35,278 nt of DNA from contig CAMWIL010000007.1 of NCBI GenBank assembly GCA_947174325.1, positions 1 to 35,278 of the forward strand. The letters are read 5' to 3'. The notes under the pieces were generated by a model. It ran no database searches, had not been told where the DNA came from, and worked only from the letters and a program-made list of their open reading frames with translations. This DNA comes from an uncultured Clostridia bacterium (GTDB lineage Bacteria; Bacillota; Clostridia; Christensenellales; UBA3700). Position numbers and translations under genes: made by a program. Of the stretch, positions 9,842 to 34,871 are shown piece by piece; the first letter of the stretch is position 1, and each line of letters begins with the position of its first letter.

Positions 9842-10005
9842 GTTCGGCGGAAAGTGAGATAGACAAAAAAGAAAGCGATAGATTTTTCGTCAGTTGGGCA
9901 TAGAAAAAAATTTCTCGTACTTGTTGTACGAGAAACTTTTTTTACGTGTCTAAATGGCGGAAAAAATAACGTTTTACTTTTGTCTATATTCGCTTTCCGC
10001 CGAAC
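9842..10005. repeat. 164-bp inverted-repeat element (MITE-like or elaborate terminator)
   Basis: The ends are about 27-28-bp inverted repeats: left GTTCGGCGGAAAGTGAGATA then GACAAAA, right the same in reverse with small differences in the middle. The inside holds the terminator at 9904-9943 and no ORF. It begins 6 bp beyond the stop codon of the 2100-aa surface protein. The shape is that of a miniature inverted-repeat element, but no target-site duplication is visible, so a gene-end structure is the alternative. Confidence 0.5.
9904..9943. terminator. Strong bidirectional intrinsic terminator
   Basis: TTTCTCGTAC (9911-9920) pairs perfectly with GTACGAGAAA (9926-9935) around TTGTT, with seven A on the left and CTTTTTTT on the right, so both strands show hairpin plus U-run. 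On the minus strand it would end the giant surface-protein operon. Confidence 0.8.
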
Positions 10006-10010
10006 AGCTT

Positions 10011-10529
10011 CTAATAAGATAACGTCGTAACGATCTTGGTCTTGAATTCCCCTTCATTGTAGGAGATTTCAATCGACGTCAATCTCTTTTCCTGAATGTC
10101 TGCTATTACTTTAACGGTAGCATTGGTAGCGTTGGCTCTGCCAAGGAACGCGCTGACGTTGGATACGTCTGCGGTAAAGCTTGCCGTAGTACGCGAAGTA
10201 ACGTAAGAAATGTTTTCAAAGTAATCTACGTTGAAATCCAATCCCGAACCGTTTGAACCTAACGCAAAGCTAGGCGCAGTAACGTTTTCATTGGTGGTTT
10301 CTACACCGTTCTCATTGCGATAAATGATAGTCGAGCCGTGTGATACCGTGATCTCGTAATCTCTTGACTTTTCGTTGCTTGCTACTTTATAGGAAGCAAG
10401 ATCGAGCAATTCTTCTTGCTTCATGGTAGTATCTTTACAACCTACGAATACCATTACCGCTACAAGCATTATGGTGATCGCCAATATAAATTTCTTTGCA
10501 TACTTCTTGCCGTTTGATTTTTTTGTCAC
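10011..10529 (-). other. Possible internally started lipoprotein within the 2100-aa ORF
   Basis: In the same frame, codon 1929 is a GTG (10529) with GAGGA about 10 nt upstream. Starting there gives a 172-aa protein: MTKKSNGKKYAKK, hydrophobic core FILAITIMLVAVMVF, lipobox VFVGC with Cys31, and a 140-aa beta-rich domain. This is a standard lipoprotein layout. It could be made as a separate product or be a fused gene remnant. No separate promoter was sought beyond the SD; this is inference from sequence layout. Confidence 0.4.
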
Positions 10530-13500
10530 AGTTTTTTCTTCCTCGTCTTCTTTTCTTTTCTTAGCAACGATACCAAGCATCAAACCGACAGCGCTCAAAC
10601 CTATACCCGTACTCGAAAGAGCGAGCGCGGTAGCAGTCGCCGAATTATTGCTCTTGCCTACAGCCTTTGCGGTAACGTCTTGCGCTCCTGCGACAACTGC
10701 GCTTGCGTCAGATAGCAACTTAGCAAGAGACGCGTCCAATGCAGCTATTTTGTTGTTGTCGATCAAATACAAATCGTCTTCGTGTACGTCGATCAACTGA
10801 GCTTTGAGCGCCCTGTAAGTCGACATATTGCTGAACGTGATCGTCTGCAAAGCGTTTATTCTATTTGCAAGATCGCCGGCGTTGCAACCAGTTCTAGCAT
10901 AAATATCCAAAACGTTGGACTCTTTGTAGTTGGGATCGATGCCTTCTTCTACTCTTACTCTGATAGAGTAGTTGTTCAACGGACTTACGTTTGAATATTC
11001 GTAAGTGTTGTTGCTATCTGCCGAGAGATAAGCCTCTCCGTTGACGCTATACTGCAAGCCCGGAATTTTACTTGAGAATACGAGCTTGTTGTAGTGTACT
11101 TCCATAACGATATCGTCGGCTGTGATAACGCGCGTCGCTTTATGGACTTCAAACGGAATGATTTTTTCGCCCGTGAACGGAGAATCTGCTCCGCTTGGTT
11201 TGATAACCATATAATAAGTGGCGGCATTTATAACTTCAGTCGTCATATTTTTGCCCTGCTCGTCGGTAGCAATACCGATAGACAACGCATTCTTTATCGC
11301 ATCGTTGTGAGCGTAAAGATCGAACTTGCTATAGAGGTTTTCGCCGGTGTATACTACTGATTCCTCAACGTCGATATAACGCTCGCCGTTGAAAGTAACG
11401 AAGAAGTATTCTCCTATGTCGTCAAAGTTTGCGTCGATAACGAGCAAATCGCCTTCATTGTAATCTATCCTGTAGTTGCCCGCTTCGACAGCGTCGCCCG
11501 TAAATCTGATCTTTACAACGCCTTCGTGTACTTTCAATTCTTCAAAATACTCGTCGATAAACAACTCGCAACCAATCTCGTCCGTAGCGAAGAAGCGTCC
11601 GCTCGTGACGGAATAAGGCAACTCGCCTTCGGCAATATACTCAAAGTGACTCCAATCATCGGTAGGCGTCTTGACAGCCTTCAAAGATCCCGGAATATGA
11701 TAAACTCTTACGGCATTGTTTACGTTGACCGTAACGTTGACCGGATTGATCGTAACGGTAGCGGTCTTAAACTCAACGTTTCCTTCGTTCTTGACCAAAA
11801 CGTAGTTGTTGTTGAGACTTCCGTCAGCTACGTTGAGAATACGATTCTCGTCTACCTTTGCCGTATAAGTTCCTACGTTTTTAGGATTGTTCTCTATCTC
11901 GCCGTTCTCGTTAAAGAAGTTGAAGCCTACGGTGATAGTATCCTCATCGCCATCCGCTAAGTTGTGGAACGTAAGCGTCGTCTCAGGATACTGTACTCTG
12001 CCGTTGTAATCAACGTTTGCGTCTTTTACATCGAATACGTTAATTTTGATTTCTCTCGGCGTGATATTGAATACAGCGGCGCCGCTTACTATGATCTTAT
12101 AGTTTTTAGCCTTCTCGTTGTTGCTGAAATCAATACCGACTTCGTAAGTGCCTACGTTTTTCGGGAGACCTTCAAGCACTGTATCTCCTAACGTATATAC
12201 CCAAATTGCCGTCTCATCCATATCGTCTCCAGCCATAAAGGTATTTTCGCCTGCAATCTCATAAGACGGTTTTGGCAATGCTTCTCCGTAAATAACCGAT
12301 CTAACGTCGATAAACGTTCTTATATTGATAGTCAACGGATCGACTGTGAGATAACTCTGCTCATCTTCATTGACGATAACAACATTATAGTTGTTGGACT
12401 TGTCAAGACTATTGTTGATACTTCCGTCAACGCCCGCAACGCCTTGATCTCCCTTGATAGAGCTTACTCTGATAGGCGTCTCGCTGCCTACTTCGCTTCC
12501 GGCATTCGCATCGGTGATAAGATTAACAACAATATTATCTCTAAAGCGGAACGTCTCTGTTCCTACGTATTTCCACGATCTTACCGCTTCATCTGCATTA
12601 GCCTCGCCAATAAAAGCGTCAACAGGCTTGGAATACTCTTTTCTTACGTCTTTGAGCTCGATCCTAACAGTGAGTTTACCCACGTTGACATGAGTCGTCT
12701 GCAAGTGGAATTCATAGTTTGCTACCTCATCCGCATCATAAGCGCCGTTGAGCAATAGCACGGGATAAACTATATAACATCCAATATCCCATATTTCACT
12801 CGGCAATTGATATATTTCAGTCATATCCGTCAGCTGTCTATAATGATATACAGCCATCGGGTCTTGGTTTTCCGCGAGAGGCTCGCCAACGTATTGATAT
12901 CTAAACTCCACTTGGTGAGAAGTACCGTGTATCGTCGATAATCCCGTATTATTAGAGGAATTGAACACACCGAAAGTTCCGCCGCCCGGTTTATAATCCG
13001 CGCCAAACGTATACTGAGTCTCTTGACCCGGCGTAACAGTAAACGTGACCTCTCTTGCCGTTATCTCTATCTGATACGTCTCCTCTGAATCAAGGTAGTT
13101 GCTTTCGCTCTTATTGGTGATCTTATACGTAATTCTGTATTCGCCTACGTTTTTGATAGGACCGTCAATTTCCACGTCATAAGATTCCCACTTTCCTGTA
13201 GAATAGTTAAATCTTTCATATATTGCCTCGGTCGGTTCTACCTTAGCGCCGTTATTTGCTATACCGTAAGCGTAATATCCGTCCGATTCGGGAGTTTTGT
13301 TTCCGTATACAAAAGACGCGTTAAGTTCTTGCGGATCTTGGAAGTTGATTTTTGCAGGAACGATCGTCACAATAAATCTTGTCGGATTAGGCAACGAATA
13401 GTTGGAGCTTGCTGAACCGTCGGCAAAGCTTATGATGACCTGATACGAGCCGCCAACATACGGCTGTCCGACTACGTAGTCTTCCGGTACGTCGATTGCA

Positions 13501-16313
13501 TTATAGTAATCGAGATTATTTTCGTCCATTCCCAAGATATCAATTTGTATCATATCCAAGTCAACGGTCTCTACGTTATAGAAATAGAATGCGTAATTGT
13601 TTTGCTGCATTTCCGCTTGAGAAATATAATCTTTGCCTCTGCCGAACTTAATAAGTTGTTCGACTCCGTTGTAATCGAGATTTATTCTATATGCCGACGA
13701 ACCTGCCTCGTACGAAAGACTTGAATTCATTTGAACGATCGTCGCTCTCTTTTTGATAGTAAGTTTTACGTCCTCTACGTCTTCCGATATCCTGTAATTC
13801 GAATTGTTCAAAGAAACGGGACGAACAATGTAATTACCTACGTCAGTTGCAGCGGAAACTTTATTTCCTTTATTAAAGTTTTCGTCAGCTTGGTAATATT
13901 CGAGAGTAGCCGTGACTGCCTGGTCGCCCATTACCAATTCGTCGGTCGGCACCGACGCCGAAAATACTACCGCGCGACCTTGGTATTCGGTTGTTTTTGC
14001 CTGTGTAGAAGGATCAGGTTGGATAGGTACGCCTGCTGGTTCGACTATATCAAGCGAAACGCTTTTTTGAACTACTTCTTGACGAATTCTCGGCTGCCAA
14101 TCAAAAGACTTAAGACCGGCTGCGTCAATGTGACTGTAGTCGTTGCCGGTATTATCCTTATATTTCTGCGCATACGTGATGTAATTAGGATCGTCTTTGA
14201 TATACGCTACCACACGCTTACTTGTATCCAAGAAATGGATATTATTGTAATTTACCTCGCTGCTACCTGACGGATTATCAAGATAGAGGAAAGTCGTATA
14301 TTCGCCGATTTCCATATAGTCGTCAGCGGAAACCGGATTTTTAGAAGTTCCTTTCAAAGTCTTCCAATAACTATACGCATCCGGATCGCTAGGACGAATA
14401 GTGGTTATTAAAGCATTTTGCGCAGTGGTATTCGGTTGACTGTAAAGACGAATCTCGGGGATATCCAACTTGTCTCCGTATTCCGCGTCATCACGGTTTA
14501 CCGGATCGGAACCTACCGCCGTAACGCCGTCGGAGAAAATTTTATACAAATATGCTGCGCGACCGAATTCATAATTTATTTCAACGTTCGGATACAGTCC
14601 TCTTTTAAGAACGGTATAAGTCAAGTCATAATTATCCTTGGCGTCTTGTATAGAATCGTTGCGCCAATAATAAGTATTTTGCAAATTTTCGCCTATTACG
14701 CCGCTTGAATTCCTCTTTATAATTTCATTAGCCCAAAGAATATGTTCTTTATCGCTGCTTATATCGTATACTGCCCAAATGTCGCTACCGTTTTCCGTAC
14801 CGCCCCAAGTCAAGTACGCTTTATCGCTAGAAGCAGGAACGAGAGTAGAATCGTCGTCTTTACGGTATTGCATAGTTACTACGTTGCCGGTTCTTGTGGT
14901 CGTTCCCGTCGCGCCTGAATATCCAATAGAATGCCAATCTCCCGACGCATACATATTACCTAAGCAATAGATATTGTTCGTGTTCTCAGAATGGTCGTTT
15001 TCATTACCCGACATACCTACGACCATGCCGTATACTTCGCTTACTCCGGTTTTATTTAGAGGAGAGAACGATGCGCCGCTAGTATAACATTTTGCCACAC
15101 CCGTCCAGGTATTGATAACGCCGTTGATATGCGCCACGCCTGAAGAACCGGAAATCGCATTATTTGCAGTTAAGTTGTTTGGTAAATATATGTTACTGCC
15201 TACCGCAACGCCAACCTCTGCATATGCAGTATTAGCATGGCTATCTGTAATCAAACCTTGCAAAGTGCCGGAACCTGCGGTATAAAGGTTGTAAGCCATT
15301 GCGCCGTTGCCCATCCAACCTGCAACGCCGCCCAAAAATACGCGACCGTGTCCGTTTATTGTTGTGCTGCTACATGCTCTTGTTTCTACATATAAAAGGC
15401 TATTAGATTCAAGATCGATCTTGGAATTGGAAATTGTAGCGGAAGCGCCCGTCAATACGCCGACAAAACCTCCGAACGCATATGAATTTCTAGACATAAA
15501 TTCGTTCTGCCTACCTAAGGAAGCGCTCAAATCTGATGCCTTTATCATATTAAAAGACGTGTTCGACTTTACTGTAACGCTGCAATTATCTATAACGCCG
15601 CTACAATAACCGGCTATATAGCCTCCGCATCCGCTTCCCGATGTACTCTGAGTACCTGATATATTAGTATTGACTATAAAGTTAGTATTTATGATTTTTG
15701 AATTAGTGGGGATATAGCCTATAAATGCGCCGTTTATATCAATGCTACTATGAGCGCCATTTGCGCTAAAAAACGTGCCGGAAGCTCCACCGACCACGTC
15801 AAACGTTACCCAAGGCTGAGCATTCAACTGATTAGTCGTAAGAGTCAACTTCTTACCGTTTCCGTCAAAGGTCAAATAATCCTTCATAGCGACGTTGGTC
15901 ATTACTCCATTAGTCCAACAAAATTGCATATCGTTGATAAGATAACCAATAGTCGCTTTTCTGCTTGTATCTTCTACGTATGATTTCGTATCAGGATTAT
16001 AAATACTGACGCTCTTTTCGCCTTGTAAAAAGCTCATAATATCGCCCGAAGTCTGCAAAGGCGTAGAAGCCTGATTGGCGTATATGAGCCTTGCGTCATA
16101 ACCGCCTTCGCCCTTCTCATTCGGTTGCGGAACGTTGCCGTTGACCATCAAATTCTTCACCGAAGACTCGGCAGTCTGCTCCGAAACCCCGTTGATCTGT
16201 ACGTCGTCCGCCTTTACGTTCGTTGCGCTTATGCCAAATATTACCGCTATAACAAACAGTACCACGATCATTGCCTGTAAGGCTATAAACGTTCTTCTCT
16301 TAGCATTAGACAT
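10011..16313 (-). CDS. Giant MBG/Ig-like surface protein with a lipoprotein-like C-terminal extension
   Basis: A 2100-aa exported protein. A signal peptide (about 1-35, ending NVKA before DDV) is followed by a region rich in glycine turns (FGGFVGVL, FLGGVAGWM), typical of GLUG/beta-helix modules, to about residue 500. The rest is a series of about nine Ig-like modules resembling MBG/YDG domains, marked by repeats such as KNVGTY, KNVGEY and NNSNYRI, each of roughly 80-100 aa. A membrane helix lies at about 1896-1917, followed by KKRKEDEEEK. Unusually, a second hydrophobic segment (1942-1958) ends in VFVGC at C1959, a lipobox, and is followed by about 140 beta-rich residues. GGAGGA lies 8 nt before ATG 16313. 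It is the third gene of the giant operon. Probable role: surface structure or adhesin. No LPXTG motif was seen. Confidence 0.8.
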   Translation of the reverse strand: MSNAKRRTFIALQAMIVVLFVIAVIFGISATNVKADDVQINGVSEQTAESSVKNLMVNGNVPQPNEKGEGGYDARLIYANQASTPLQTSGDIMSFLQGEKSVSIYNPDTKSYVEDTSRKATIGYLINDMQFCWTNGVMTNVAMKDYLTFDGNGKKLTLTTNQLNAQPWVTFDVVGGASGTFFSANGAHSSIDINGAFIGYIPTNSKIINTNFIVNTNISGTQSTSGSGCGGYIAGYCSGVIDNCSVTVKSNTSFNMIKASDLSASLGRQNEFMSRNSYAFGGFVGVLTGASATISNSKIDLESNSLLYVETRACSSTTINGHGRVFLGGVAGWMGNGAMAYNLYTAGSGTLQGLITDSHANTAYAEVGVAVGSNIYLPNNLTANNAISGSSGVAHINGVINTWTGVAKCYTSGASFSPLNKTGVSEVYGMVVGMSGNENDHSENTNNIYCLGNMYASGDWHSIGYSGATGTTTRTGNVVTMQYRKDDDSTLVPASSDKAYLTWGGTENGSDIWAVYDISSDKEHILWANEIIKRNSSGVIGENLQNTYYWRNDSIQDAKDNYDLTYTVLKRGLYPNVEINYEFGRAAYLYKIFSDGVTAVGSDPVNRDDAEYGDKLDIPEIRLYSQPNTTAQNALITTIRPSDPDAYSYWKTLKGTSKNPVSADDYMEIGEYTTFLYLDNPSGSSEVNYNNIHFLDTSKRVVAYIKDDPNYITYAQKYKDNTGNDYSHIDAAGLKSFDWQPRIRQEVVQKSVSLDIVEPAGVPIQPDPSTQAKTTEYQGRAVVFSASVPTDELVMGDQAVTATLEYYQADENFNKGNKVSAATDVGNYIVRPVSLNNSNYRISEDVEDVKLTIKKRATIVQMNSSLSYEAGSSAYRINLDYNGVEQLIKFGRGKDYISQAEMQQNNYAFYFYNVETVDLDMIQIDILGMDENNLDYYNAIDVPEDYVVGQPYVGGSYQVIISFADGSASSNYSLPNPTRFIVTIVPAKINFQDPQELNASFVYGNKTPESDGYYAYGIANNGAKVEPTEAIYERFNYSTGKWESYDVEIDGPIKNVGEYRITYKITNKSESNYLDSEETYQIEITAREVTFTVTPGQETQYTFGADYKPGGGTFGVFNSSNNTGLSTIHGTSHQVEFRYQYVGEPLAENQDPMAVYHYRQLTDMTEIYQLPSEIWDIGCYIVYPVLLLNGAYDADEVANYEFHLQTTHVNVGKLTVRIELKDVRKEYSKPVDAFIGEANADEAVRSWKYVGTETFRFRDNIVVNLITDANAGSEVGSETPIRVSSIKGDQGVAGVDGSINNSLDKSNNYNVVIVNEDEQSYLTVDPLTINIRTFIDVRSVIYGEALPKPSYEIAGENTFMAGDDMDETAIWVYTLGDTVLEGLPKNVGTYEVGIDFSNNEKAKNYKIIVSGAAVFNITPREIKINVFDVKDANVDYNGRVQYPETTLTFHNLADGDEDTITVGFNFFNENGEIENNPKNVGTYTAKVDENRILNVADGSLNNNYVLVKNEGNVEFKTATVTINPVNVTVNVNNAVRVYHIPGSLKAVKTPTDDWSHFEYIAEGELPYSVTSGRFFATDEIGCELFIDEYFEELKVHEGVVKIRFTGDAVEAGNYRIDYNEGDLLVIDANFDDIGEYFFVTFNGERYIDVEESVVYTGENLYSKFDLYAHNDAIKNALSIGIATDEQGKNMTTEVINAATYYMVIKPSGADSPFTGEKIIPFEVHKATRVITADDIVMEVHYNKLVFSSKIPGLQYSVNGEAYLSADSNNTYEYSNVSPLNNYSIRVRVEEGIDPNYKESNVLDIYARTGCNAGDLANRINALQTITFSNMSTYRALKAQLIDVHEDDLYLIDNNKIAALDASLAKLLSDASAVVAGAQDVTAKAVGKSNNSATATALALSSTGIGLSAVGLMLGIVAKKRKEDEEEKTVTKKSNGKKYAKKFILAITIMLVAVMVFVGCKDTTMKQEELLDLASYKVASNEKSRDYEITVSHGSTIIYRNENGVETTNENVTAPSFALGSNGSGLDFNVDYFENISYVTSRTTASFTADVSNVSAFLGRANATNATVKVIADIQEKRLTSIEISYNEGEFKTKIVTTLSY

Positions 16314-16341
16314 AAAATTTCCTCCATTATTCCATCACTTT

Positions 16342-16358
16342 TCAATCGCCACGATTGA
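16342..16358. other. Hairpin before the 2100-aa protein start
   Basis: TCAATCG and CGATTGA pair around a CCA loop, 29 bp upstream of the start codon in the 107-bp intercistronic gap. It follows the large palindrome and leaves the RBS free. Confidence 0.4.
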
Positions 16359-16381
16359 TTTGACTAAAAATCTATTATGTT

Positions 16382-16413
16382 CTCTACAATGCAGACGCGT
16401 CTGCATTGTAGAG
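16382..16413. other. Perfect 32-bp palindrome in the intercistronic gap
   Basis: The half-site CTCTACAATGCAGACG is followed at once by its exact reverse complement, so there is no loop or mismatch. It lies 8 bp after the stop of the 1909-aa gene within the operon. No adjacent U-run, so it is less likely a terminator than an mRNA-processing or stability element or a protein-binding site. Confidence 0.7.
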
Positions 16414-16420
16414 TTCTGCA

Positions 16421-19400
16421 TTATGCAATTACTTCGTCTTCTTTCTTTCTCTTGTTTACAATCACTACCGAAGTAACGATTGCAGCTATCATGACCGCAG
16501 CCGTCACGGATACGGCAACGATGCCCATTGTACTCAATTCTGACTTATTGATCTCGCCAACGATCAAATTCCAATGCTTGTTGATAAAATGATTGTCTCC
16601 GACATTCAATTCTACCGTGTATTCGCCGTCCGGAAGAACGCCGTCGGAATTCGGCTCTACTACGTTTCCGTTCGCGTCTTTATAGACGAGGAAACAAGCT
16701 GTGTTCTCGCCGTCTGCAGTATAATATCCGTAATTACCTTCAACGGGAAGTCCGCTTGGAATTCTAGTCGGCAAGTCTATACCGGCTTCGCTGACAACGA
16801 TCTCCGCTTTGTCGATCTGTATAAACGTATCGAGTTCCAACGTGTCGTGGTTGGCAACCGTCAATCTTACTCTTCCGTTGTAATTACCGGCATTGATAGC
16901 GTAGAGATTACCCACTTCGGAAGTCGTCAAACTTGTAATAGTAACCGGCTTGCCGTCGTAATAGTAATTTCCGCCTATTATATCCAAACCGTTGAACGTA
17001 ACTCTATGCTGAGTTCCGTCATATACGGCTGCTACCGGCACTGCCGTTACGCCTACTATCTTCGCGTTGGCGATAGTAACCGTTGCAGTAACCTGATAGT
17101 CTTGGAAACCTTCCTGCGTAACCGTCATGTAGATCCTGTGCGTTCCCGCATTGGTGATCTTAATATCGGAAAGGTTCTTGTAATCCTGACCGTTGTATCT
17201 AAATTCGACTTTTGCTTCTGCATAAGGCACTTTCGGATCGAGTTTTGTGACAAAATCGCTTCCGTCGTAAGTTCCGTCAACGCCTTCAAAAGATATACCT
17301 TTGAATACAGCCTTAGTGATCGTCATAATGACGTTTGCAGTACATTCTTCATAATTATCGTCGCCTGCATATTTTATTCTGTAAGTATACTCGCCGACTT
17401 CGGTGTACCAACCTGCGCCGTAACCGCTGTCACCGATCGGCTCCCAAGCGCCTTTATTGCTGTTGAGATACTCGATAGTGATTTTGCTGGAATCGATCAT
17501 TGCATACGACCAAATCTCTTCGGCGCTTCCGTTTACAGCTCTTACGTACGCTTGAGCGTCCACAAAGTTGAAAGCGCGATGGATAGGATTTTTGTTATCG
17601 TCAACGTCATACGCGTAAACAACGCTGTTTTTGAATACGAATTCCGTAGTTGCCTTTATGATAACCAAATCTCCCGAATACGTTTCTTTAAAGAACGCGC
17701 TATTGCCCGCATAGGATACTTCGACGTGATACAAACCTATTCTGTTGGGTACTCCGTCGATAGGATTTAATCTGTCATAGTCGCCTTTGATCGTACGCGT
17801 GTTCGTATCGTACTCGCTTCCTGCAAAATAAGGATAATAAGTATATTGCAAGTCTGCTTTACTAAACAAGCTCTCGTTCAAATTTGACGGTATGCCCGGG
17901 TCGTAGTCTATACCTCTTCCCGCATTATACTCAACAACGTTGATACCCATTGCAAGCGGCAACTTTCCTTGTCTGATATAGAAATAGAATTTATACGTCG
18001 GATCGTCTACGATCTTACCATTTTCGATATAAGTATCTTTTACGGAATAATTCTTATCTGAAATGGAGACAACGATCGTATACTCGCCTGTCTTGTAGAT
18101 AGCAGAGTTGGTTACGGTTTCGTCGCCCATACTCAATTCTACGTCTGCGTTTTGCGTATTGCCGTTGATATCTACGTAAGTAGCGGTAAAGACGTGCGAC
18201 GCGCCCGCGTTGACCGAGGTAGGAATATTATAACTACCGTCCATTTTGATATCGACAGATACCGGCAAAGCCTCGATATAGATGAGTTTACCCTTTACTG
18301 ACAACTCCATATTGCCGCCCAAATCGGATATTACTTCGCCGTTGCACCAATATCCCGTTTCGCTGACAGGTTGGATCGTTTTCGCCAAACAATCTAATTT
18401 TACGGTCACAGGCTCATCCTTTATGCCGACGTTTACGTCAATAGTTTCAGGAATTGTTTCGCCGTATTTGTAAACGTTGGAAAGTCCCATAACGTACTCA
18501 AGTTGGATCTGGTAAACATATTTGTTGATCTTGGTATTCATAGGTATTGCGCATACCGAAGAAGTAACGTTGTCGCCTACGATCGTATACGCATTCTCAA
18601 AATCGATCTTGGAGTTATCTGCAAAATACAGATTGTATCTTTCCGTGATCGCTTCGTCCGCGGCAAACGTAGCGTAAAGCTTGACGCTATCAGCCGCATT
18701 TGACGATTCGTATTTAAGTTCTACCTTGATCCTAATGCTGATATCTTCCGGATAAGCAATATACGCAGGGGTATAAAGCACTCCGATGCCTTTTTCATTG
18801 GCGTATTGCATAATGTTCTCGCGTTGCTCCGCTCCAAAGTCTACGTTTATATAGAACGTCGAAGCGCCTACGTAACTGTCATTGCCGTCATAGACCTTGT
18901 TGAAGAACTTTTCGAGATCAGTTACGTTTTCGTTCGCGATTATATCCGCAATACTTCTTCCGTCGTAGTTGCCGCCGGAAACGTATACGCTCTTGAGCGA
19001 GTAGTCTATATAGAGGCTCGCCACTTTATAGTTTATTATAAAACTTCCTACAAGACCGTTATCCGTCACTATTCCGCTTCTGGAGAAATATACGTCTTGA
19101 TACAAGCCTTGCACGTTGACCATTCTCATCTTGAACGGAGCGCTTATGCTTCTTACGGGATCGCCCATATTCCAGTTGACAAGGAAAGATTTCTCTCCCA
19201 TGCTGTTGATGATGTAAGGGCTGTCCGTATTCATTCCGTTGACGTCCTGAGCCATAGCGTCTTCCCACTTGTCGCTACCGTCGGGATTTTTCTGCCAGCT
19301 GTATTGCAACTGCCAATCAGAACATCCTACGGTCGGATTAAATCTTATCGTAGCGCCTTGCGTGGAATAACCGTAGTCGCTCGTAAGATAAGTGAGCTTT

Positions 19401-22150: not shown

Positions 22151-22173
22151 AATTTCTCTTTATCCCCCTACAA

Positions 22174-25100
22174 TTAAGCCGTTTGCGAATTACTTAATAC
22201 TACTACCGCTTTAATGGTAATGCGTTGAGCGATGTCTCCGCTACAAACCGTTAACGTAACGTCAGTACCGATAGTTGCAAGATCTTCGTCCGATACCGGA
22301 GCGCCGTTTCTGTCTCTGTAATAATAAGCCTTGCCGTCAACTTCAAATCTCTCAACGCTTTGTACGTCGTAATAATTCATGTTGACTCCCAACAGATCTA
22401 TGGTACATTCGTAAGTGCCGTAAGTGCCGTCCGTGAACGCTACGTAAAGATTACGCGTCATAGACGTTGTCAACAACTCCTCCTCGCTAAGGTTGGATCC
22501 GCCTTGCATTATCTGGACATAATATCCTTCGGTACCTACGTAATCAACTTTCTTAGCTACGACGTTTACGTTGACTCTAAACGTTCTGTCGTATTTGCTG
22601 TCCAACGCTTTTGAAATCATCTTGACGGTGTAAACGTCGCTTATCGCGTAGTTGATTTCCGTCAGATCCCAATCAACGTTGACGTTGAAGTATTCTTTTA
22701 TCACAGCAGATGTAACCACTATGCCCGATCCTTCTCTTGCGAAGAAATCTTCGATCATATCAAAGTATCTCGTCGTATAAGTCGATTCTTGCGAATTCTT
22801 CGTATAGACTACTTCGTACTGAACGTAAGTATCAAATTCTTCGGATACGTTGCCCGAAACAGTCTTCAAACCGTTTGCCTTGATATTTTCAAGATCGCTG
22901 AAATCTATATCTCCGACAACTTTATAGACGTAACCCGTAGTCGCAAAGTTGGAATATACTCTGCTTCCGTTTTCGTCGATCGTGTACTTGTACGGATCGA
23001 TATCCATACTCTCTACTGCAACTTTGAGATTCGTACGGTCGATGATCTCTACATTGATAGGATACTTATATTCTTCAGAAATAACAACGTATGCCGTCAA
23101 ATCTTTTCTGCCGTCCATCGTGATGAGCGATCTGTCGAACTCCCAATTAACTTCAAGTTCGGACTCTTTCTTGCTCATATATACCATCGTTACGGTAGAC
23201 GGGAACGGATCCATTCCGTAATAGAGCACTTGTATCGGATCGATGTAGAAAGTAGTTTCTCCGTTATGCTTAACGCTGTATTCGCTGCCCGCTACGTCGA
23301 TACCGTCAGGTACGAGGTTTTCGACTCTAACGTTGACGTAAACCATCTGTTCGAGATCGCCGACAATTTTGCTTGCAAGGTCGCCGGTAACGTCATAACC
23401 TATCTTGACTTGCAACTGACCGAATTTGCTTGAATAGTCTATGATATTGAAATTCTCAAGTCCTATCCATTGTATCGGCATCTTGAATACGCTTCCGTTT
23501 GTAAATACTACCCATGCTTCTTGCGGATAGATCTGTTGATCAGTATCTCCGTGCTCTTTTCTGAGCAAATATTCAAACGGATCTATGAAGTACGTCGACT
23601 GCGTGAGCGCTTCGTCAAAGTATACCGCCTGAACTTCGTTTCTCATGACTACGACTTCTGTGTCGAACGTCCAAGTGAAGTTGCCGCTGTACTTGCTGTT
23701 GTCCAAAGATACGCTAACCGGCGTACTTTGAGCATTGTTGTTGTTCCAACCAAAATCGATGTTTTTGTACTGATCTTCGTTCCAAGAGATGTACACTTCT
23801 TCTGCAATACCGTCGTTATTGTCGATGATATTTTCAGAAGGATCTATAGGAGACGCATACACGTCGTTATAGTTAGCCAATGCAGTAGTTGGGAACGGAT
23901 TGTATTGCTCGTCGCCCGTGATCAAATACATATAGTACTGATACGGATCTATTCTGAGCGTATTTTCAAGTCCGTTTATCGTCAACTTGCTGACTTTCTT
24001 TGTCTTGATCCAAACCATAAGGCTTACGTTCTGCAACGTGTTGTTATCTGCATTACCAATGGTAGTGGTTATGATAAACGCCGTACCGTCAACGTTTCTC
24101 GATAAGCCGTCTTCGTCGACAACTCTGTCATAGAAACCGCTGTTTTCCGCCGCGCTTACGTCCCAATCTCCGTTGATATCGAGACCTACCGCCATTCCAT
24201 CCTTATACTTGAAATAGAATACGTCGGAAATATAATCTCTTATGCTCGATTCTTTCGTAAGCTCGTATTCATACAGATCAATGATCAATCTCGGGATCTG
24301 TCCGTCCTTCGCGCTGATCGCCTCTCCGTCAATGATAGCCTGATCGATAGTTGAATCAATAAAGTTGATAGTTACGGGCATATCCGCTTGATCTTCTCTT
24401 GGGAAGTGTACCCAAGCGTTGACTTGATTGTCTTCTTTGAACGTTTTGGGAACTGCCGCGCCCGTTTTATCTTCGTTGAGGAAATCCAACCTCTCCGTGC
24501 TTATCTTTCTGGTAGAGCCGTCTTTCATTCTTACCGTGATAAAGTCAGGCCATACGTCGTAAGCGTGCAATGAGAAAGATTCTACTCTCTCTATTCCGCC
24601 GCCGTCGCCGAGAGCGTTGATAGTGATCTCCATAGTTCTCGTTATTGTGCCGAACGTCGCTCTAGCTTCGATCACGTAAATGCCTTTGTTTTTCAAAATA
24701 GCAAGAGAATCCTGAGTCACCAAAGTATCGGGATTACCCGCGCTGTTGACAGAATAATCAATCCAAGCGCTGTTTTCGTCATATCTATGTCTCTTCAGAT
24801 AGAACGAAACGCTCTTCTTGATGATCGCGCCGCTTGCGCCATCTTGATAACTAGCATCCTTATCTTTGAAATGCTTATTGTATATCTCCTCCGCGCCGTC
24901 GTCATCATTGGTGTAGGTATATGGAGCGTAATCGATACGCGACGGAATATCCGACCACGTTACGCTTCCTTGCGCGTCATTACCTGTCACGCCCGGTATT
25001 GCATTGGACGGATCGCCGACAGCCTTGAACATATTGTATATCCAAATTTGAGTAAAGTAGCCGTTTGTTCTTGCGCTGCTTGCGCCGTATGCCAAATTTC

Positions 25101-28100
25101 CGTCATAATCATAGATTTCGTCATTATGATCATCGCCTATGACGTATATGTTGGCAAGCGTAGCGTCTACGACGTTGACTCCCACGTGGAATTCATTAAA
25201 TACCGCAAACGGAATCAATGGACGAATGAGTCTGCTAACTTGAGTATATACGTTATTAAGCAAAGTATCTGTAATAAAGATGCTAACTCCGCCGTAACCC
25301 ACTGCTTTTACAACGTCTTGAAGCAACGGAGAGAGTTGCGATCTCAACGAACCCCAGAATGAATCCGTATTGTTGTCAGATCCGGGGATCATTCTCGTCC
25401 AAGCTACGTTGGAGAGATAGTCTTGAGAGAACATATCGGGAGCCAACGCTTTGAGGTTGAGCAACGATTCTTTACCTGTGCCCTTAGAGAATATTGCTCC
25501 GAGCACTGTGTCGATCAAATTATTGATCGTGTATGGATCGAACTCGACGTCGACATTGAAGTTGCCGTTTGATCTAAGGCTTACTTCGATACCTCTGCTG
25601 AGAAGTTTGACAACGTCTAAGTCTTTAAGCAATTCCTTAAATTTATCGCCGATAGACGGTTCGTTATTGCCGTCTTCGCCGTCAGCCGTAGCAAGAGCCT
25701 GCGTATCCGTCTGAGAACTCATATTATCAAACATATCATCCAACTGCGTGAAGAGTCCGTCAAACAAATCGCCCAAAGTACCCAACAGATCCAAATCTAT
25801 GGCCATATCTTTGACAACAGTACCAAAATCTATAAAGAATTCGACAACGTTCTTTGCCAAAGTCAGTTTTATTTGACCTGCGTCATAGTCAAGTACAACG
25901 TACGCTATCGCCTTGGAAGAACCGTTGGCGGTGTTGTCGTTGAAGAGCGTTTTGTCTATTTGGTATACGCCTACTACGATATTTCCTCTAGGTATACGAG
26001 GCTCGCCGTCCGCGCCTACCATTCTATCGTCGTTACCTGCTCTCCAGATTCTTATTCTTGTATAACCTGCGCTGCCGAGAGCTGAATTTGCGTCGCTTGT
26101 GTTGTTGGCAAGGTCAATAGTAAGACCGATATCCAAATTATCAAGCATTGTTTTTGCAAGAGTTCTGCCGCTCGTAGCGTCCCAATCCGCAATATTTTCA
26201 TAGTCTACGCGGATATCTACTTCTCCGCCGACGTTGAGTTCCAACTTAGCTTTGACTTCTATATCCTGCACGCCTACGTCGATACCAAATTCGTTGCCGA
26301 ACAAATCGAGTTTGCCGTCAAGCGTAAAGTCGATACCCAAGTTGATACCCAAAAGTTCGTTGAGCAACGTATTGATAAGCGTAGAAGTAAAGTTGAGCGC
26401 GATAGACGTATCTTCAAGACTTACGGCGCTGAGCAAGTATTTTACCAGATCCATAACTTGGAGATTTTCGCCGATAGTCGGAATATTATCGTCTGTCGCA
26501 ATGTCTCCTTCCGTCGAACCTGCGCCCGGCAAAGTCGGAAGACCCGCCTGCTCCAACAAATCGCCTATGATCTCGTTCAGATCAAAGCCTTGGATCTGTT
26601 TAACGTATCCGTCGATCATTCCGAATACCTTGGAAATGATATTGGAGTTGACGAGTTCCGCGCTGAACAAGCCTAGACCTTCAAGATTAATGATAAGGCT
26701 GTTACGGTAGATGTATACGCCGAGTACTACCTTACCTCTGTATTGCATCTCCAACTTGATCGCGCTACGTACAGAATTCGTAAGATCGATATCCCATTGC
26801 AAAAGCAACTTAACGTCTGTTTCCCATTCGTCAAGGTTGAGTGTGATAGGAACTTCCAATCTCTTGCCTACGCTTGCGAGAATGGTGTTGATCATTCTTT
26901 GCAGATCCATCTTGTTGTCTTTTGTCAACAACGTGAGAGTGAGATCAAGACTTCCCGTACCTACGGTATCCATGATCGCTTGGATCAAATCCGACTTATA
27001 CTGTTCGAATTCCAACGCCTTAGCGGCAAAATTGAACTTTTTATCGTCAGGAATCTTGCCCACAACTATTGGATAATCCGCAGTACCTGCTTCAAACAAC
27101 AACTTGAAGCCGGTATCGACACCATTAGCATTTATATAATTGTATTTCTTATACGCGTACGCTTTATTATCTTTATCAGTATTTTGATATACGATCTTCT
27201 TTCCGTTCTCATCGTGAGTAGGAAGTTGTTCGCCTTTTTCGTCATAGTAGAACACGCAAATGCTGTCCTTTTTTATGCCGTTTTCTTCTTGATAGTCGAT
27301 CATTACAGGGATCAAATTGCCGGTAAATTCAAACTTGAAGCCGTCTTTTCTGCCCATAGAAGTCTCCAAGTTTATTTCCATAAGACCGAGAGCTTCCGCA
27401 AGCGTTCCATCTATAATGTCAGGATCGATCATATTGATAACCGCCAAAATCGACGCCATAGAGATCATAGGCGTGATCGCCTCGGAATTCACTCCAAGAA
27501 TGATTGCCGCAAGCTCCTCGTTCAAAGTCGCCTGTCCGGCATTGCCGTTTGCCATAGCCATTGCGCCATCAGTAGACGGAGCGGACGACAAGCCGATAAG
27601 ACTTCCCAAATCAAAATTGAATATGAGATCTCCGCCCTCAATCTTCATAGAGGTGAGCAATTGAGCTATCATATCGTCGATAAGCGAGAATATCACTTGA
27701 GAGAAACGCAAATCGAATTTGAGTTTCGGCAACGTAATATTAGCTATCTTAAAATTAGATAAATCTATATAAACACTATTTCTATATCCGTATATACCTA
27801 ATAATACAGTATCCTTAGCAAACTTAACGCCTTCGTCGCCTTCTCCGACTCTAATATCGTTCTCTGCTTTAAGTTCGAATAAGAACGTACTTTCGCTCGG
27901 ATTTGCTCTATCAAGAGCAATTTGGATATTGAGGGACGCATCCAATACGAATTGATCGGTAAATTCCCAAATAATATCCGTGTCTGCGATTTGCGGCAAA
28001 CCGAAGCTTGCGATGAACGGAGCAAGATTGTATCTTCCTTCGTTGAACGTCATACTAAAGTGCGTTCTGATAATAATTCCCGACAGCAACGTATCAATAA

Positions 28101-30078
28101 CGCCGCTGAGAGAATTGATATAACTTGTATTTTCTTTATTTATACCTTCTTCAATACGTTTGTCGAGGTCAAGATCCTCATAACCGATATAGAACTGATG
28201 TATTTTCACTTCTAAATCAAGCGTAGAATCAATCGTTGCGTCTACCGCAATACTGTCAAGTCCGCCTTCAAAGAGATTGATCGTAAGATTGACCTCCGGA
28301 ATAGCGGCAGGGAAAGAAAATCCTAAATCTTTGCCAATAAGACTGCCGATCGCGTCTATAAGTTTGTCATTCGCGGTTATTATGATTTGACTGCCTTCTA
28401 CCCTTATATTATTGCTGAAACCGACAAGCTGAGTAAGCGCGTCGATAAAGTTCTTAAATCCTGCGTTGATAACGTATTTACCGTTGTCAGCCGAGGAAAG
28501 AGCAATCACTTCCGCATTTGCGGTAGCAAGTATTTTTTCAAGATCATTTTGCGAATAAACCGCCACAGAGCCATCTTTTTCTACCGAAGCGCCTGAATTA
28601 TCTACTATATCTCTAAAGTCCGTGCCAAGCGCGCCGTCAATGGCGCCAGTGATCATATCTACCAACGCGCTCACAAGCGTAGAAAGGTTGGTATCTACTC
28701 TCAAATTGATGTTTTGCATATAGTTGGGCAATAAGTTGTCGAGGTTGATATAAAGACTTCCCTCTGTGTAATAAATGCCCGCTTGCGGTCTGGATCCTTC
28801 TCCGTCCGCAAGAGTTCCGTCCTGTTTGAGCAAATACAATTCTATAGCGATCTTGTTTTTGTCAACAGGCTCTTTTTTATAATTCAAATCCAAATCCAAA
28901 GCAAAGGACAGCCTAAGTCCCGTGCCGCCTTCAAGCAACAACATACCCGCAGGCAAGCGGAAATCGGGCAATAAACCCGTGCTTCCCAAAAGTTGATTGA
29001 GTACCAAACCTACGTCGAGTCGCTTATTCTCCATCACAGGGTTGCCCTCTGCGTCAACAACAGGATTGTTGTTTTCATCTACTTTCTGCACCATTTGAGT
29101 GCCGACCAAAAGGTCAATAGAGAATTGTATGTTGGTCAACGAGAAGTTGACGAGAGCCGACTCGTCTATCTCGGGTATATATGTATCTACAGCAGTATCT
29201 TTAATATCCAAATCAATCACCAAGCTGGTGTGTTCATTTGCCGCATTATCGTCAATATTTACGCCTAAAAATATCAATTTACCGTCAGCGTCGAAATTGG
29301 ATTGCAATTTATACACGCCGTTGGGCATCAAACCGCTCAAATAACTGAGGAAAGGTCCCACGTCGACAGGTAAAGTGAATGGCAATCTATTGAGAAGGTT
29401 AGGAATACCGTCCAAAAGACCTTTGACATCAAATACCATCGAAATATTTTGACCGCCTTCTTCAGTAACCTCAACAACAGGGGCTTGGAAAAGTATCATC
29501 ATTATCAAAGGCAAGTAAGTACTAATCGTATCTCCAATGCCGCCGATAAGATCAGGCAATTTTCCTATAGCAGACTCAATAAGGCTGACCATATAGTTGG
29601 GATTGAAATCTTCGAGATAAAGCAACGACTTACCTTCGCCGAGATCGACGTACATTTTGTCGTTGACCATATATATGCCGAAGACTCTCTCTCTCGTCTC
29701 CTGATTGGCAATCTGCTGATAGACGATAAATGACAATTCATTACGGTATTTATCGTAAAGATTGCCCTTAAAAGCTATCGTCGTCTTCTTGCCGTCAGGC
29801 GCGGTAAAGTCCAATTCGAAATCTATTCCGAGAACTTTCTCGGGAGTTTCGATAGCGCCTATGATCTTCTCCAACAATTCCATCGACTCGTAGTATATAG
29901 TCGGCTCGGTAGGATCATCATCTCCCCCATTTATAGGTGGAGGAACCGGCATAGTACCATTGCCGTTTTGACCACTATTGGGATCGTCTTTAGGATGGCA
30001 GGCAGCGAACACCGACATCATCGCAACCAGTAGTATCACCACTAACAATAAGGCTGTAATCAATTTGGATTTTTTCAT
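22174..30078 (-). CDS. Giant 2634-aa lipoprotein with tandem modules
   Basis: First gene of the operon. The signal peptide ends in SVFAAC, with lipidated Cys at residue 27, followed by a Gly/Pro/Asp linker. Residues about 60-1650 contain repeated beta-rich modules marked by related motifs: GIYMVNDKMYVDL (134), GIYYTEGSLYINL (434), GIYGYRNSVYIDL (761), GVYIYRNSLIINL (1120) and a weaker copy at 1370. From about 1780 to the end come Ig-like units with a different mark: IDLYEY (1933), IDPYQY (2043), IDPFEY (2165), IDPIQV (2279) and IDPYKY (2360). There is no C-terminal membrane segment, so it is held to the membrane by its N-terminal lipid. I do not recognise a named family; LolA/LppX-like beta folds are possible for the first modules. 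AGGAGAGG precedes the ATG. Probably a stalk or scaffold reaching through the wall. Confidence 0.8.
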   Translation of the reverse strand: MKKSKLITALLLVVILLVAMMSVFAACHPKDDPNSGQNGNGTMPVPPPINGGDDDPTEPTIYYESMELLEKIIGAIETPEKVLGIDFELDFTAPDGKKTTIAFKGNLYDKYRNELSFIVYQQIANQETRERVFGIYMVNDKMYVDLGEGKSLLYLEDFNPNYMVSLIESAIGKLPDLIGGIGDTISTYLPLIMMILFQAPVVEVTEEGGQNISMVFDVKGLLDGIPNLLNRLPFTLPVDVGPFLSYLSGLMPNGVYKLQSNFDADGKLIFLGVNIDDNAANEHTSLVIDLDIKDTAVDTYIPEIDESALVNFSLTNIQFSIDLLVGTQMVQKVDENNNPVVDAEGNPVMENKRLDVGLVLNQLLGSTGLLPDFRLPAGMLLLEGGTGLRLSFALDLDLNYKKEPVDKNKIAIELYLLKQDGTLADGEGSRPQAGIYYTEGSLYINLDNLLPNYMQNINLRVDTNLSTLVSALVDMITGAIDGALGTDFRDIVDNSGASVEKDGSVAVYSQNDLEKILATANAEVIALSSADNGKYVINAGFKNFIDALTQLVGFSNNIRVEGSQIIITANDKLIDAIGSLIGKDLGFSFPAAIPEVNLTINLFEGGLDSIAVDATIDSTLDLEVKIHQFYIGYEDLDLDKRIEEGINKENTSYINSLSGVIDTLLSGIIIRTHFSMTFNEGRYNLAPFIASFGLPQIADTDIIWEFTDQFVLDASLNIQIALDRANPSESTFLFELKAENDIRVGEGDEGVKFAKDTVLLGIYGYRNSVYIDLSNFKIANITLPKLKFDLRFSQVIFSLIDDMIAQLLTSMKIEGGDLIFNFDLGSLIGLSSAPSTDGAMAMANGNAGQATLNEELAAIILGVNSEAITPMISMASILAVINMIDPDIIDGTLAEALGLMEINLETSMGRKDGFKFEFTGNLIPVMIDYQEENGIKKDSICVFYYDEKGEQLPTHDENGKKIVYQNTDKDNKAYAYKKYNYINANGVDTGFKLLFEAGTADYPIVVGKIPDDKKFNFAAKALEFEQYKSDLIQAIMDTVGTGSLDLTLTLLTKDNKMDLQRMINTILASVGKRLEVPITLNLDEWETDVKLLLQWDIDLTNSVRSAIKLEMQYRGKVVLGVYIYRNSLIINLEGLGLFSAELVNSNIISKVFGMIDGYVKQIQGFDLNEIIGDLLEQAGLPTLPGAGSTEGDIATDDNIPTIGENLQVMDLVKYLLSAVSLEDTSIALNFTSTLINTLLNELLGINLGIDFTLDGKLDLFGNEFGIDVGVQDIEVKAKLELNVGGEVDIRVDYENIADWDATSGRTLAKTMLDNLDIGLTIDLANNTSDANSALGSAGYTRIRIWRAGNDDRMVGADGEPRIPRGNIVVGVYQIDKTLFNDNTANGSSKAIAYVVLDYDAGQIKLTLAKNVVEFFIDFGTVVKDMAIDLDLLGTLGDLFDGLFTQLDDMFDNMSSQTDTQALATADGEDGNNEPSIGDKFKELLKDLDVVKLLSRGIEVSLRSNGNFNVDVEFDPYTINNLIDTVLGAIFSKGTGKESLLNLKALAPDMFSQDYLSNVAWTRMIPGSDNNTDSFWGSLRSQLSPLLQDVVKAVGYGGVSIFITDTLLNNVYTQVSRLIRPLIPFAVFNEFHVGVNVVDATLANIYVIGDDHNDEIYDYDGNLAYGASSARTNGYFTQIWIYNMFKAVGDPSNAIPGVTGNDAQGSVTWSDIPSRIDYAPYTYTNDDDGAEEIYNKHFKDKDASYQDGASGAIIKKSVSFYLKRHRYDENSAWIDYSVNSAGNPDTLVTQDSLAILKNKGIYVIEARATFGTITRTMEITINALGDGGGIERVESFSLHAYDVWPDFITVRMKDGSTRKISTERLDFLNEDKTGAAVPKTFKEDNQVNAWVHFPREDQADMPVTINFIDSTIDQAIIDGEAISAKDGQIPRLIIDLYEYELTKESSIRDYISDVFYFKYKDGMAVGLDINGDWDVSAAENSGFYDRVVDEDGLSRNVDGTAFIITTTIGNADNNTLQNVSLMVWIKTKKVSKLTINGLENTLRIDPYQYYMYLITGDEQYNPFPTTALANYNDVYASPIDPSENIIDNNDGIAEEVYISWNEDQYKNIDFGWNNNNAQSTPVSVSLDNSKYSGNFTWTFDTEVVVMRNEVQAVYFDEALTQSTYFIDPFEYLLRKEHGDTDQQIYPQEAWVVFTNGSVFKMPIQWIGLENFNIIDYSSKFGQLQVKIGYDVTGDLASKIVGDLEQMVYVNVRVENLVPDGIDVAGSEYSVKHNGETTFYIDPIQVLYYGMDPFPSTVTMVYMSKKESELEVNWEFDRSLITMDGRKDLTAYVVISEEYKYPINVEIIDRTNLKVAVESMDIDPYKYTIDENGSRVYSNFATTGYVYKVVGDIDFSDLENIKANGLKTVSGNVSEEFDTYVQYEVVYTKNSQESTYTTRYFDMIEDFFAREGSGIVVTSAVIKEYFNVNVDWDLTEINYAISDVYTVKMISKALDSKYDRTFRVNVNVVAKKVDYVGTEGYYVQIMQGGSNLSEEELLTTSMTRNLYVAFTDGTYGTYECTIDLLGVNMNYYDVQSVERFEVDGKAYYYRDRNGAPVSDEDLATIGTDVTLTVCSGDIAQRITIKAVVVLSNSQTA

Positions 30079-30121: not shown

Positions 30122-30150
30122 AATATATTACTTTTCAAACCAAAAGTCAA
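30122..30150 (-). promoter_or_regulatory. Promoter of the giant surface-protein operon
   Basis: On the minus strand TTGACT (30145-30150), a 17-bp spacer and TATATT (30122-30127); each box differs from consensus at one base. It is the only good promoter seen for the three genes down to 10011. Confidence 0.65.
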
Positions 30151-31236: not shown

Positions 31237-32136
31237 TTATACAAACCTTTTCGCCGTTATGAAATAGCTCCATCTTGTGCTGCTGATCTCCTCTATTACC
31301 GCATGGTCGGACGCCGTGTGAAGGATATAATTATTACCCAAATACAACGCTACGTGTCCCACGCGTTCTACGCCTGTATTGTAGTATCTGCTCGCATTTG
31401 TGAAGAACATCACGTCGCCTCTTTTTAAATCGCCGTTGGCGACTGTAGCGCCTTGAAGCACTTGAGTGCGAGTATTCAAATCAAGAAGTATACCGCCTCC
31501 CATATAAAATATGTATTGCATAAGCGCTGAGCAATCGAATTCGCCTTGAACAAAGTTTTTATTGAGAACTCCGTTGCCCCAGTGGTAGCGTTGACTGCCC
31601 CAAACGTACGGATATCCCATAAGCTCTTCGCCTATCGAAATAATTCTTTCGATCTTATCGCTCGACGACTGCTTCATTTGAACTATATGAGCATAGTTGT
31701 TACCTGCATATACGTACGCTACGCGCTGTTTATACACAGTTTTGTACCAGCCGTTCACCGAACCTTCATAACGCAACATATCCCCTTTGTCCATGCTTCC
31801 TACTACCGCAGAGCCGGTAGACGGTCCGGATCGGATATTCAGTCCTTGCGTATCGCTCAAAATCATAGATGAATACTTGACAACGGGAGCGACGACTTGC
31901 GGAGTATCGTTTGAATTCGTTCCGTTCCCTTCTTCGGGACTCTCGTTAGGCTCATCCGACGTTGGAGGAACTACAATCTCTACGTCAGGATGACGAAACG
32001 CATCCCAATTTGCAGACCAATCCGCATCCAATTCCACGTTATTCCCGCTATTTTGGCTTTGACACGCGGCAAAAGCGCATGTCGAAAACGCGCAGATCAT
32101 AATCAAAGCTATTGCAGTCGTAAGTATTTTTTTCAT
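31237..32136 (-). CDS. SH3b-NlpC/P60 lipoprotein (peptidoglycan endopeptidase)
   Basis: A 299-aa envelope protein. The signal peptide ends in AFAAC with lipidated Cys25. An acidic Pro/Asn-rich linker leads to a bacterial SH3 domain (about 90-150; LNIRSGPSTGSAVVG, WYKTV, AYVYAG) that likely binds the wall. The NlpC/P60 domain fills 160-299 with catalytic Cys202 (GEFDCSALMQ), His261 (RVGHVALYLG) and His273 (ILHTASD), so it should be active as a D,L-endopeptidase cutting stem peptides. The ORF track starts at 32217, but GGAGGT lies 6 nt before ATG 32136 and a promoter lies inside the longer ORF, so 32136 is the true start. It could remodel the wall for export or insertion of the giant surface proteins; this link is only by proximity. 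Confidence 0.9.
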   Translation of the reverse strand: MKKILTTAIALIMICAFSTCAFAACQSQNSGNNVELDADWSANWDAFRHPDVEIVVPPTSDEPNESPEEGNGTNSNDTPQVVAPVVKYSSMILSDTQGLNIRSGPSTGSAVVGSMDKGDMLRYEGSVNGWYKTVYKQRVAYVYAGNNYAHIVQMKQSSSDKIERIISIGEELMGYPYVWGSQRYHWGNGVLNKNFVQGEFDCSALMQYIFYMGGGILLDLNTRTQVLQGATVANGDLKRGDVMFFTNASRYYNTGVERVGHVALYLGNNYILHTASDHAVIEEISSTRWSYFITAKRFV

Positions 32137-32161
32137 AGCGACCTCCTTTTCCTTCGACTTC

Positions 32162-32190
32162 ATTCTAACATTTAATAAAACGCCGTTCAA
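32162..32190 (-). promoter_or_regulatory. Promoter of the NlpC/P60 gene
   Basis: On the minus strand TTGAAC (32185-32190), a 17-bp spacer and TAGAAT (32162-32167), about 26 bp before the RBS-supported start. Confidence 0.55.
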
Positions 32191-32264
32191 TACACAAAAT
32201 TTTCCAATTGAGCGCATTTTGCATAAATTTAATTTATTTGGTATTAAAAAATAAGAATGTATGT

Positions 32265-34858: not shown

Positions 34859-34871
34859 ATAAGAAAATTCA

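Follow-up and report, generated by a model that had tools for sequence, protein, structure and literature searches.

Do three giant genes standing side by side in an uncultured bacterium encode one surface apparatus, or are they unrelated adhesins that happen to be neighbours? The question is raised by positions 1 to 35,278 of contig CAMWIL010000007.1 (assembly GCA_947174325.1, an uncultured Clostridia bacterium of the lineage Christensenellales; UBA3700). This whole stretch of 35,278 nucleotides is called the window here. An earlier sequence-only reading had pointed out three consecutive giant genes with small gaps, and our analysis agrees. Genes 1, 2 and 3 are open, successive open reading frames (ORFs) on the minus strand, encoding 2634, 1909 and 2100 aa, and the gaps are 23 bp between genes 1 and 2 and 107 bp between genes 2 and 3. 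A ribosome-binding-like sequence stands 5' of the ATG of each. Gene 1 (22174..30078) encodes a giant lipoprotein with the lipobox FAAC (Cys27) and has orthologues in its own genus and in other genera. Gene 2 (16421..22150), recognised as an ORF and by its pairing with gene 1, encodes a giant surface protein with a signal peptide and a C-terminal helix followed by KRKK. Gene 3 (10011..16313) encodes another giant surface protein, with a small lipoprotein joined to it in the same frame; the two are separate ORFs in other genera. The explanation we favour, with middling confidence, is that the trio is a dedicated, vertically inherited surface apparatus in which a chain of hydrophobic-ligand-binding modules stands beside adhesins.

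The trio is conserved, lost and paired as one module

The order 1-2-3 is retained in 21 genomes of one family and four genera, 14 from the window's own genus and seven from three others (G017, G022; G019, G024, G028; G021, G026; the window's own genome is G000). Within the own genus, the trio stands in order in 14 of the 17 genomes examined, the window's included, while in G012 it is represented by fragments. One of the 14 (G002) has a broken gene 3. This is probably an assembly gap and no real disruption, since the bases at the break are unresolved (they appear as X in the translation). Genes 2 and 3 of the other genera are detected, and told apart, by profiles built from the own genus only, with E values no worse than 3e-68. 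Where relatives bear names, they are metagenome-assembled ‘uncultured Christensenellaceae’, ‘Christensenella sp.’ or Clostridia.

Two congeners, G014 and G015, lack all three genes and have an empty site. In G014 the response regulator gene ends at 9402 and the HI0933 gene starts at 9418, with 15 nt between them, and the junction is the same in G015. All 20 kb are thus gone between otherwise intact neighbours, which identifies the trio as one module. Pairwise protein distances within the genus correlate at r = 0.994 between genes 1 and 2, and those of genes 1 and 2 correlate with gene 3 at r = 0.977 and 0.983, respectively. Because the neighbouring genes, all vertically inherited, also show such a correlation (0.88-0.98), we count this co-divergence as supporting evidence only.

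The strongest evidence for a shared machine is the obligate pairing of gene 1 with a giant partner. Of the 36 family loci with a gene 1 relative, whose products range from 1628 to 7246 aa, 35 have as the following same-strand gene one that is recognised by the gene 2 or gene 3 profile; the spacing is mostly -53 to +84 nt. Fourteen of these 35 matches lie outside the loci from which the profiles were built. In the lone exception, G031, the neighbour lies 223 nt off and is represented by a fragment, as the retrieved region ends within it.

The sequence-only reading had proposed a dedicated surface apparatus rather than unrelated adhesins, to be checked by gene order in relatives and to be given up if order were lost and the genes were distributed independently. 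We found the opposite on both counts: the order persists across four genera, the genes are absent jointly from G014 and G015 and diverge together, and the pairing is almost without exception. The proposal is thus supported by order, block loss and pairing, while contact between the three products and their role are inferred.

Gene 1 is a lipoprotein of predicted LolA-like repeats

The N-terminal signal of gene 1 carries the lipobox SVFAAC with its cysteine at position 27, and a lipobox motif is present in 34 of the 36 family members. Pfam and NCBIfam scans of the window's three giants gave nothing above cut-off. Comparison of the gene 1 profile with itself revealed two repeat zones, and the repeat units were delimited by iterated profile searches. 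Four LolA-like repeats could be assigned with the repeat profile: repeat 1 (aa 61-345, of which the iterated searches delimit aa 61-333; 29044..29898), repeat 2 (aa 359-655; 28114..29004; domain E 1.4e-32), repeat 3 (aa 679-937; 27268..28044; domain E 4e-26) and repeat 4 (aa 1055-1332; 26083..26916; domain E 3.8e-63). A weaker, probably fifth repeat (aa 1364-1563; 25390..25989) is matched by the repeat-4 profile only (E 1.3e-12). The C-terminal part contains Big_4-like immunoglobulin-type repeats (aa 1934-2381; 22936..24279), found by the profile self-comparison, and Big_4 itself is detected in 9 of 12 gene 1 homologues (best E 6e-10). The copy number of the repeats varies among gene 1 relatives from 4 to about 16.

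We assign the repeats to a LolA/LppX-like fold with moderate confidence, based on structure prediction. The AlphaFold2 model of repeat 1, built on an 82-row repeat alignment, has a predicted local distance difference test score (pLDDT) of 78.9 and a predicted TM-score (pTM) of 0.58. When this model was compared with the PDB by Foldseek, LolA, LolB, LprF, Csa1B and SAOUHSC_02783 were matched with a probability of ~1.00 and E from 6e-5 but TM-scores of only 0.35-0.43, and all top matches belong to the LolA/LppX superfamily. A model of aa 55-1210 (1156 aa; pLDDT 61, pTM 0.46), weaker and not suited to reading domain packing, gave the same fold direction, with RseB among its matches. The strands of the repeat are amphipathic: the hydrophobic fraction is 0.84 vs 0.36 on the two faces, and 0.58 in random stretches.

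The repeat is not confined to this family. Among the 247 genomes of the order, its profile has matches in 65, which belong to six families; in genomes from other orders of the class (342-genome sample) it has none. ORFs in other families, with N-terminal lipoboxes, encode 13,588 aa (G237:C2:100847-141613), 11,335 aa (G099:C9:18987-52994), 9,230 aa (G224:C3:11393-39085) and at least 7,367 aa (G155). The window's gene 1 thus ranks among the smaller ones in a class of enormous lipoproteins that extends across the order. The 11,335-aa relative is followed by an NlpC/P60 lipoprotein that resembles the window's.

Genes 2 and 3 resemble MBG-stalk adhesins

Judged by their profiles, genes 2 and 3 are partly paralogous, with a common N-terminal domain and MBG-type stalks. 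The N-terminal domain of gene 2 (aa 78-448; 20807..21919) has G-rich repeats with the look of a beta-helix, and hhalign, working on sequence only, aligns it to aa 83-436 of gene 3 with a probability of 99%. The MBG-type stalk of gene 2 (aa 1200-1860; 16571..18553) aligns to the gene 3 repeats at 92-96%. MBG_2 is detected in 6 of 10 gene 3 homologues (best E 9e-21) and MBG_3 in 2 of 11 gene 2 homologues, while the matches in the window's own genes 2 and 3 fall below the cut-off.

Gene 2 ends in a single helix and the KRKK tail. The tails of genes 2 and 3 consist of a helix with K/R residues and no LPxTG, and no sortase (PF04203) was found in the five genomes examined, nor Omp85 in the window's genome. 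Both absences agree with anchoring by membrane helices and lipid in a cell that lacks an outer membrane, and the host, a Christensenellales-type gut bacterium, is probably such a cell.

A small lipoprotein is fused to gene 3

The sequence-only reading had seen three anchoring modes in the trio: a lipid anchor, a single C-terminal helix, and a helix plus lipobox. The first two stand, for the lipobox of gene 1 and the C-terminal helix of gene 2, but the third turns out to be a fusion with a small lipoprotein. In other genera, gene 3 ends after its C-terminal helix and a separate lipoprotein gene of 160-179 aa starts, typically after another ~10 to 15 nt. Every complete copy in the own genus has gene 3 and the lipoprotein in one frame, consisting of the helix, a basic linker, a second helix with a lipobox, and the lipoprotein domain. 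In the window, the first helix (aa 1898-1917; 10563..10622), placed by hydropathy and the ends of homologues, is equivalent to the stand-alone gene 3 C-terminus. It is followed by the internal signal-like helix with the lipobox VFVGC (Cys1959; 10437..10496) and the fused lipoprotein domain of 142 aa (10014..10439), which is homologous to the separate lipoprotein genes. The internal lipobox cysteine is retained in 13 of 13 fused forms, and all of these, like the stand-alone forms, have a signal-like helix with a positive flank before it.

The most plausible reading of the tail is a fusion or polyprotein in which the lipoprotein portion would still receive its lipid. The topology of the second helix (N-in, C-out) is that of a proper LspA substrate, and the window's genome does encode LspA, so that cleavage at this site may be envisaged. 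The cytochrome b/c1 fusion (fbcH), which is cut by signal peptidase, is a precedent in kind. Alternatively, internal translation initiation could yield the small lipoprotein separately, with no processed polyprotein. A GTG with an upstream GAGG does lie in the gene 3 linker of the window, and similar sites occur in G005 and G006. We nevertheless regard this as unlikely, as no site of the GTG/GAGG type is found in G007, G008, G011 and G016, whose lipobox is retained. On the polyprotein reading, gene 3 may be an instance in nature of lipoprotein signal peptidase cleaving a membrane polyprotein. In a literature search, with subscription papers and preprints largely outside its scope, we found no description of an LspA-cut polyprotein or of tandem LolA giants. 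The small lipoprotein domain was also considered as a further LolA-like unit, but the sequence does not support this, as hhalign finds no detectable relation to the gene 1 repeats.

Expression signals

The perfect terminator reported after the trio is confirmed: an intrinsic terminator with a perfect 10-bp stem and seven T lies on the minus strand at 9904..9935, ~75 bp 3' of gene 3. The claim of one good promoter fares less well. A candidate TTGACT-17-TATATT (30122..30150, minus strand), assigned by consensus only with 10/12 matches, lies 44 bp 5' of gene 1, and the gene 1-2 and 2-3 gaps contain no listed promoter-consensus site on the minus strand. However, shuffled sequence also yields numerous such matches, so a single operon promoter is plausible only.

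A strong intercistronic RNA hairpin without a U-tract lies between genes 2 and 3 (16382..16413, minus strand; z = -4.46). Every gene 2-3 gap longer than 60 nt contains a GC hairpin without a U-tract (window, G006, G007, G008, G011, G016, G019, G028), and gaps longer than 60 nt between a gene 1 relative and its partner likewise hold a strong hairpin of this type. The hairpin sequences are unrelated between species while the structure recurs (z = -5.9, -3.3 and -1.9 in three others). These hairpins may stabilise or process the message and thus lead to different amounts of each gene product.

Neighbouring genes and other features of the window

The usual gene order is NlpC/P60, response regulator, histidine kinase, trio, small lipoprotein, HI0933 flavoprotein, FAD protein and LRR_5 protein. 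The upstream NlpC/P60-SH3 lipoprotein of the window (31237..32217, minus strand) is a recurrent neighbour of gene 1 relatives and a candidate accessory protein. The two-component genes before the trio decay within the genus: regulator and kinase are both present in G006, G008, G011 and G016, the regulator only in G001, G004, G007, G009 and G013, and neither in G000, G002 and G005. The regulator alone persists in the trio-less G014 and G015. The downstream flavoproteins (HI0933-like, suggestive of BaiN and bile acids, and FAD_C) are conserved neighbours and were considered as parts of the set, but rejected: they are paired without the trio in five genomes (G014, G018, G020, G025, G027) and are treated as bystanders. 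A second HI0933-type flavoprotein of the window's genome (G000:C14:4050-5285) has one in-frame TGA.

The downstream LRR_5 (BspA-type) membrane protein (window 4890-6575) co-diverges with the trio (r = 0.95-0.98), nearly as closely as the three genes do among themselves, yet persists in G014 without it. The end of the window (34871-35278) is a tandem array of a 125-bp unit, 3.3 copies with 96% match, which runs off the contig end. Positions 1-2050 are AT-rich (26-27% GC vs about 43%) and contain three successive minus-strand ORFs, including one of 381 aa without a Pfam or NCBIfam match. This segment looks foreign and is possibly a mobile or defence island.

Discussion

We then propose a model for the trio. 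Gene 1 would be exported and lipid-anchored in the membrane, and its four or five LolA/LprF-like half-barrels would be strung across the wall, with the Big_4 spacers coming after them. The hydrophobic face of each half-barrel may bind a lipid or another hydrophobic ligand; the LolA fold is best known for carrying lipids. Genes 2 and 3 would be long adhesin-like partners that reach the substrate, each with the common N-terminal recognition domain, an MBG stalk and a C-terminal membrane helix. The small lipoprotein, which in this genus is part of gene 3, would probably be released by Lgt/LspA at the internal lipobox and act at the membrane base beside gene 3. Most likely, the set would attach the cell to a substrate or to the surface of a host, where it would capture or pass on hydrophobic molecules.

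Several results weigh against this model. The TM-scores of the repeat model to LolA-fold structures are low (0.35-0.43). The gene 1 repeat gave no relevant match against Pfam and PDB profiles and no sequence link to LolA, LprG or any PDB chain, the PDB profile searches returning chance matches only. Membership in the LolA fold is thus likely rather than certain. Some LolA-fold proteins (RseB, Csa1) are, to our knowledge, not known as lipid shuttles. Outside this family, the gene 1 relatives sampled in the order are solitary, without gene 2/3 giants, so the repeat lipoprotein can work without genes 2 and 3. Finally, LspA (PF01252) was not found in G005 and G016 though both encode lipobox proteins; this absence may reflect assembly incompleteness.

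The main rival, which we consider quite possible without being probable, is a purely structural and adhesive set. In it the gene 1 repeats would be inert spacers lifting a tip across the wall; genes 2 and 3 would be ordinary MBG-stalk adhesins for mucin, fibre or cells. MBG and Big_4 are classic stalk domains, the repeat number varies as freely as in spacer arrays, and the Giant1-5 cluster of Apilactobacillus kunkeei has been interpreted as adhesins (PMC12863079). However, spacers are normally small Ig-like folds, and a predicted 280-aa LolA-like half-barrel with a hydrophobic face would be unusual among them. A sensory or stress arrangement, in which LolA-fold domains of the RseB kind detect lipids or lipoproteins of the envelope and the adjoining two-component system responds, has in its favour the regulator, often with the kinase, directly upstream in most relatives, and RseB among the matches of the longer model. 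It is improbable given that both two-component genes are absent from the window's subclade, that the regulator outlives the trio in G014 and G015, and that sensing does not need giant size. Still less credible are unrelated giant adhesins that are neighbours by chance. Each protein does have its own signal sequence and anchor, and separate promoters are possible, but block loss and obligate pairing contradict this explanation, as do conserved order and co-divergence.

A dedicated apparatus of ligand-binding modules and adhesins thus remains our preferred explanation. It is tempting to speculate further, although we doubt that the evidence reaches so far, that it belongs to an undescribed, order-wide lipid-handling machine. 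Tethered chains of LolA-like carriers (up to 13,588 aa) would pass hydrophobic molecules across the wall of cells that have no outer membrane. In this family they would be linked to giant adhesins, and in this genus also to a lipoprotein that is freed from a polyprotein at its internal lipobox. Giant surface proteins are usually classed singly as adhesins, whereas here a module of three is gained or lost as a unit. An order of mostly uncultured gut bacteria invests genes of 8 to 41 kb in lipoproteins with LolA-like domains, and this offers a way of testing how bile acids, fatty acids or host lipids might be dealt with on the surface of such cells.

Comparison with known systems

LolA and LolB, together with LprG, LppX and LprF, are fold parallels of gene 1, whose repeats share their predicted half-barrel topology with one hydrophobic face; LprF and LolB are also lipid-anchored, as is gene 1. 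The known members have one domain of ~200 aa, whereas gene 1 has four to five per chain and its relatives up to ~16, and the gene 1 repeats have no detectable sequence similarity to the LolA and LprF families. Lol lipoprotein sorting has an outer-membrane destination, and the window's genome has no Omp85 as a marker of one. Staphylococcal Csa1 and SAOUHSC_02783 show, by the Foldseek matches, a LolA-like fold in monoderms, as predicted for gene 1, but they are small, single-domain proteins without giant partner genes. Bridge-like lipid transfer proteins (AsmA/TamB/VPS13) likewise present a repeated hydrophobic surface along a long protein; theirs is a continuous groove of repeating modules, and the gene 1 model displays no such groove.

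Genes 2 and 3 have the MBG-type stalks and C-terminal anchor of the MBG-domain adhesins of Firmicutes. They differ in having no LPxTG or sortase (five genomes) and in always standing behind a gene 1-type lipoprotein in the family loci examined. The closest anatomical parallel to the whole trio is Giant1-5 of A. kunkeei, compared here by the published description only; there, very large surface proteins are encoded by successive genes of a small genome (PMC12863079). Both sets have adjoining giant genes, and N-terminal ligand-type domains on long repeats. The Giant1-5 proteins have no transmembrane domain and probably attach via SH3b-like C-termini, and their repeats are alpha-helical or small beta domains (PMC12863079). 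The trio uses lipid and helix anchors, and gene 1 is a lipoprotein of predicted LolA-like repeats.

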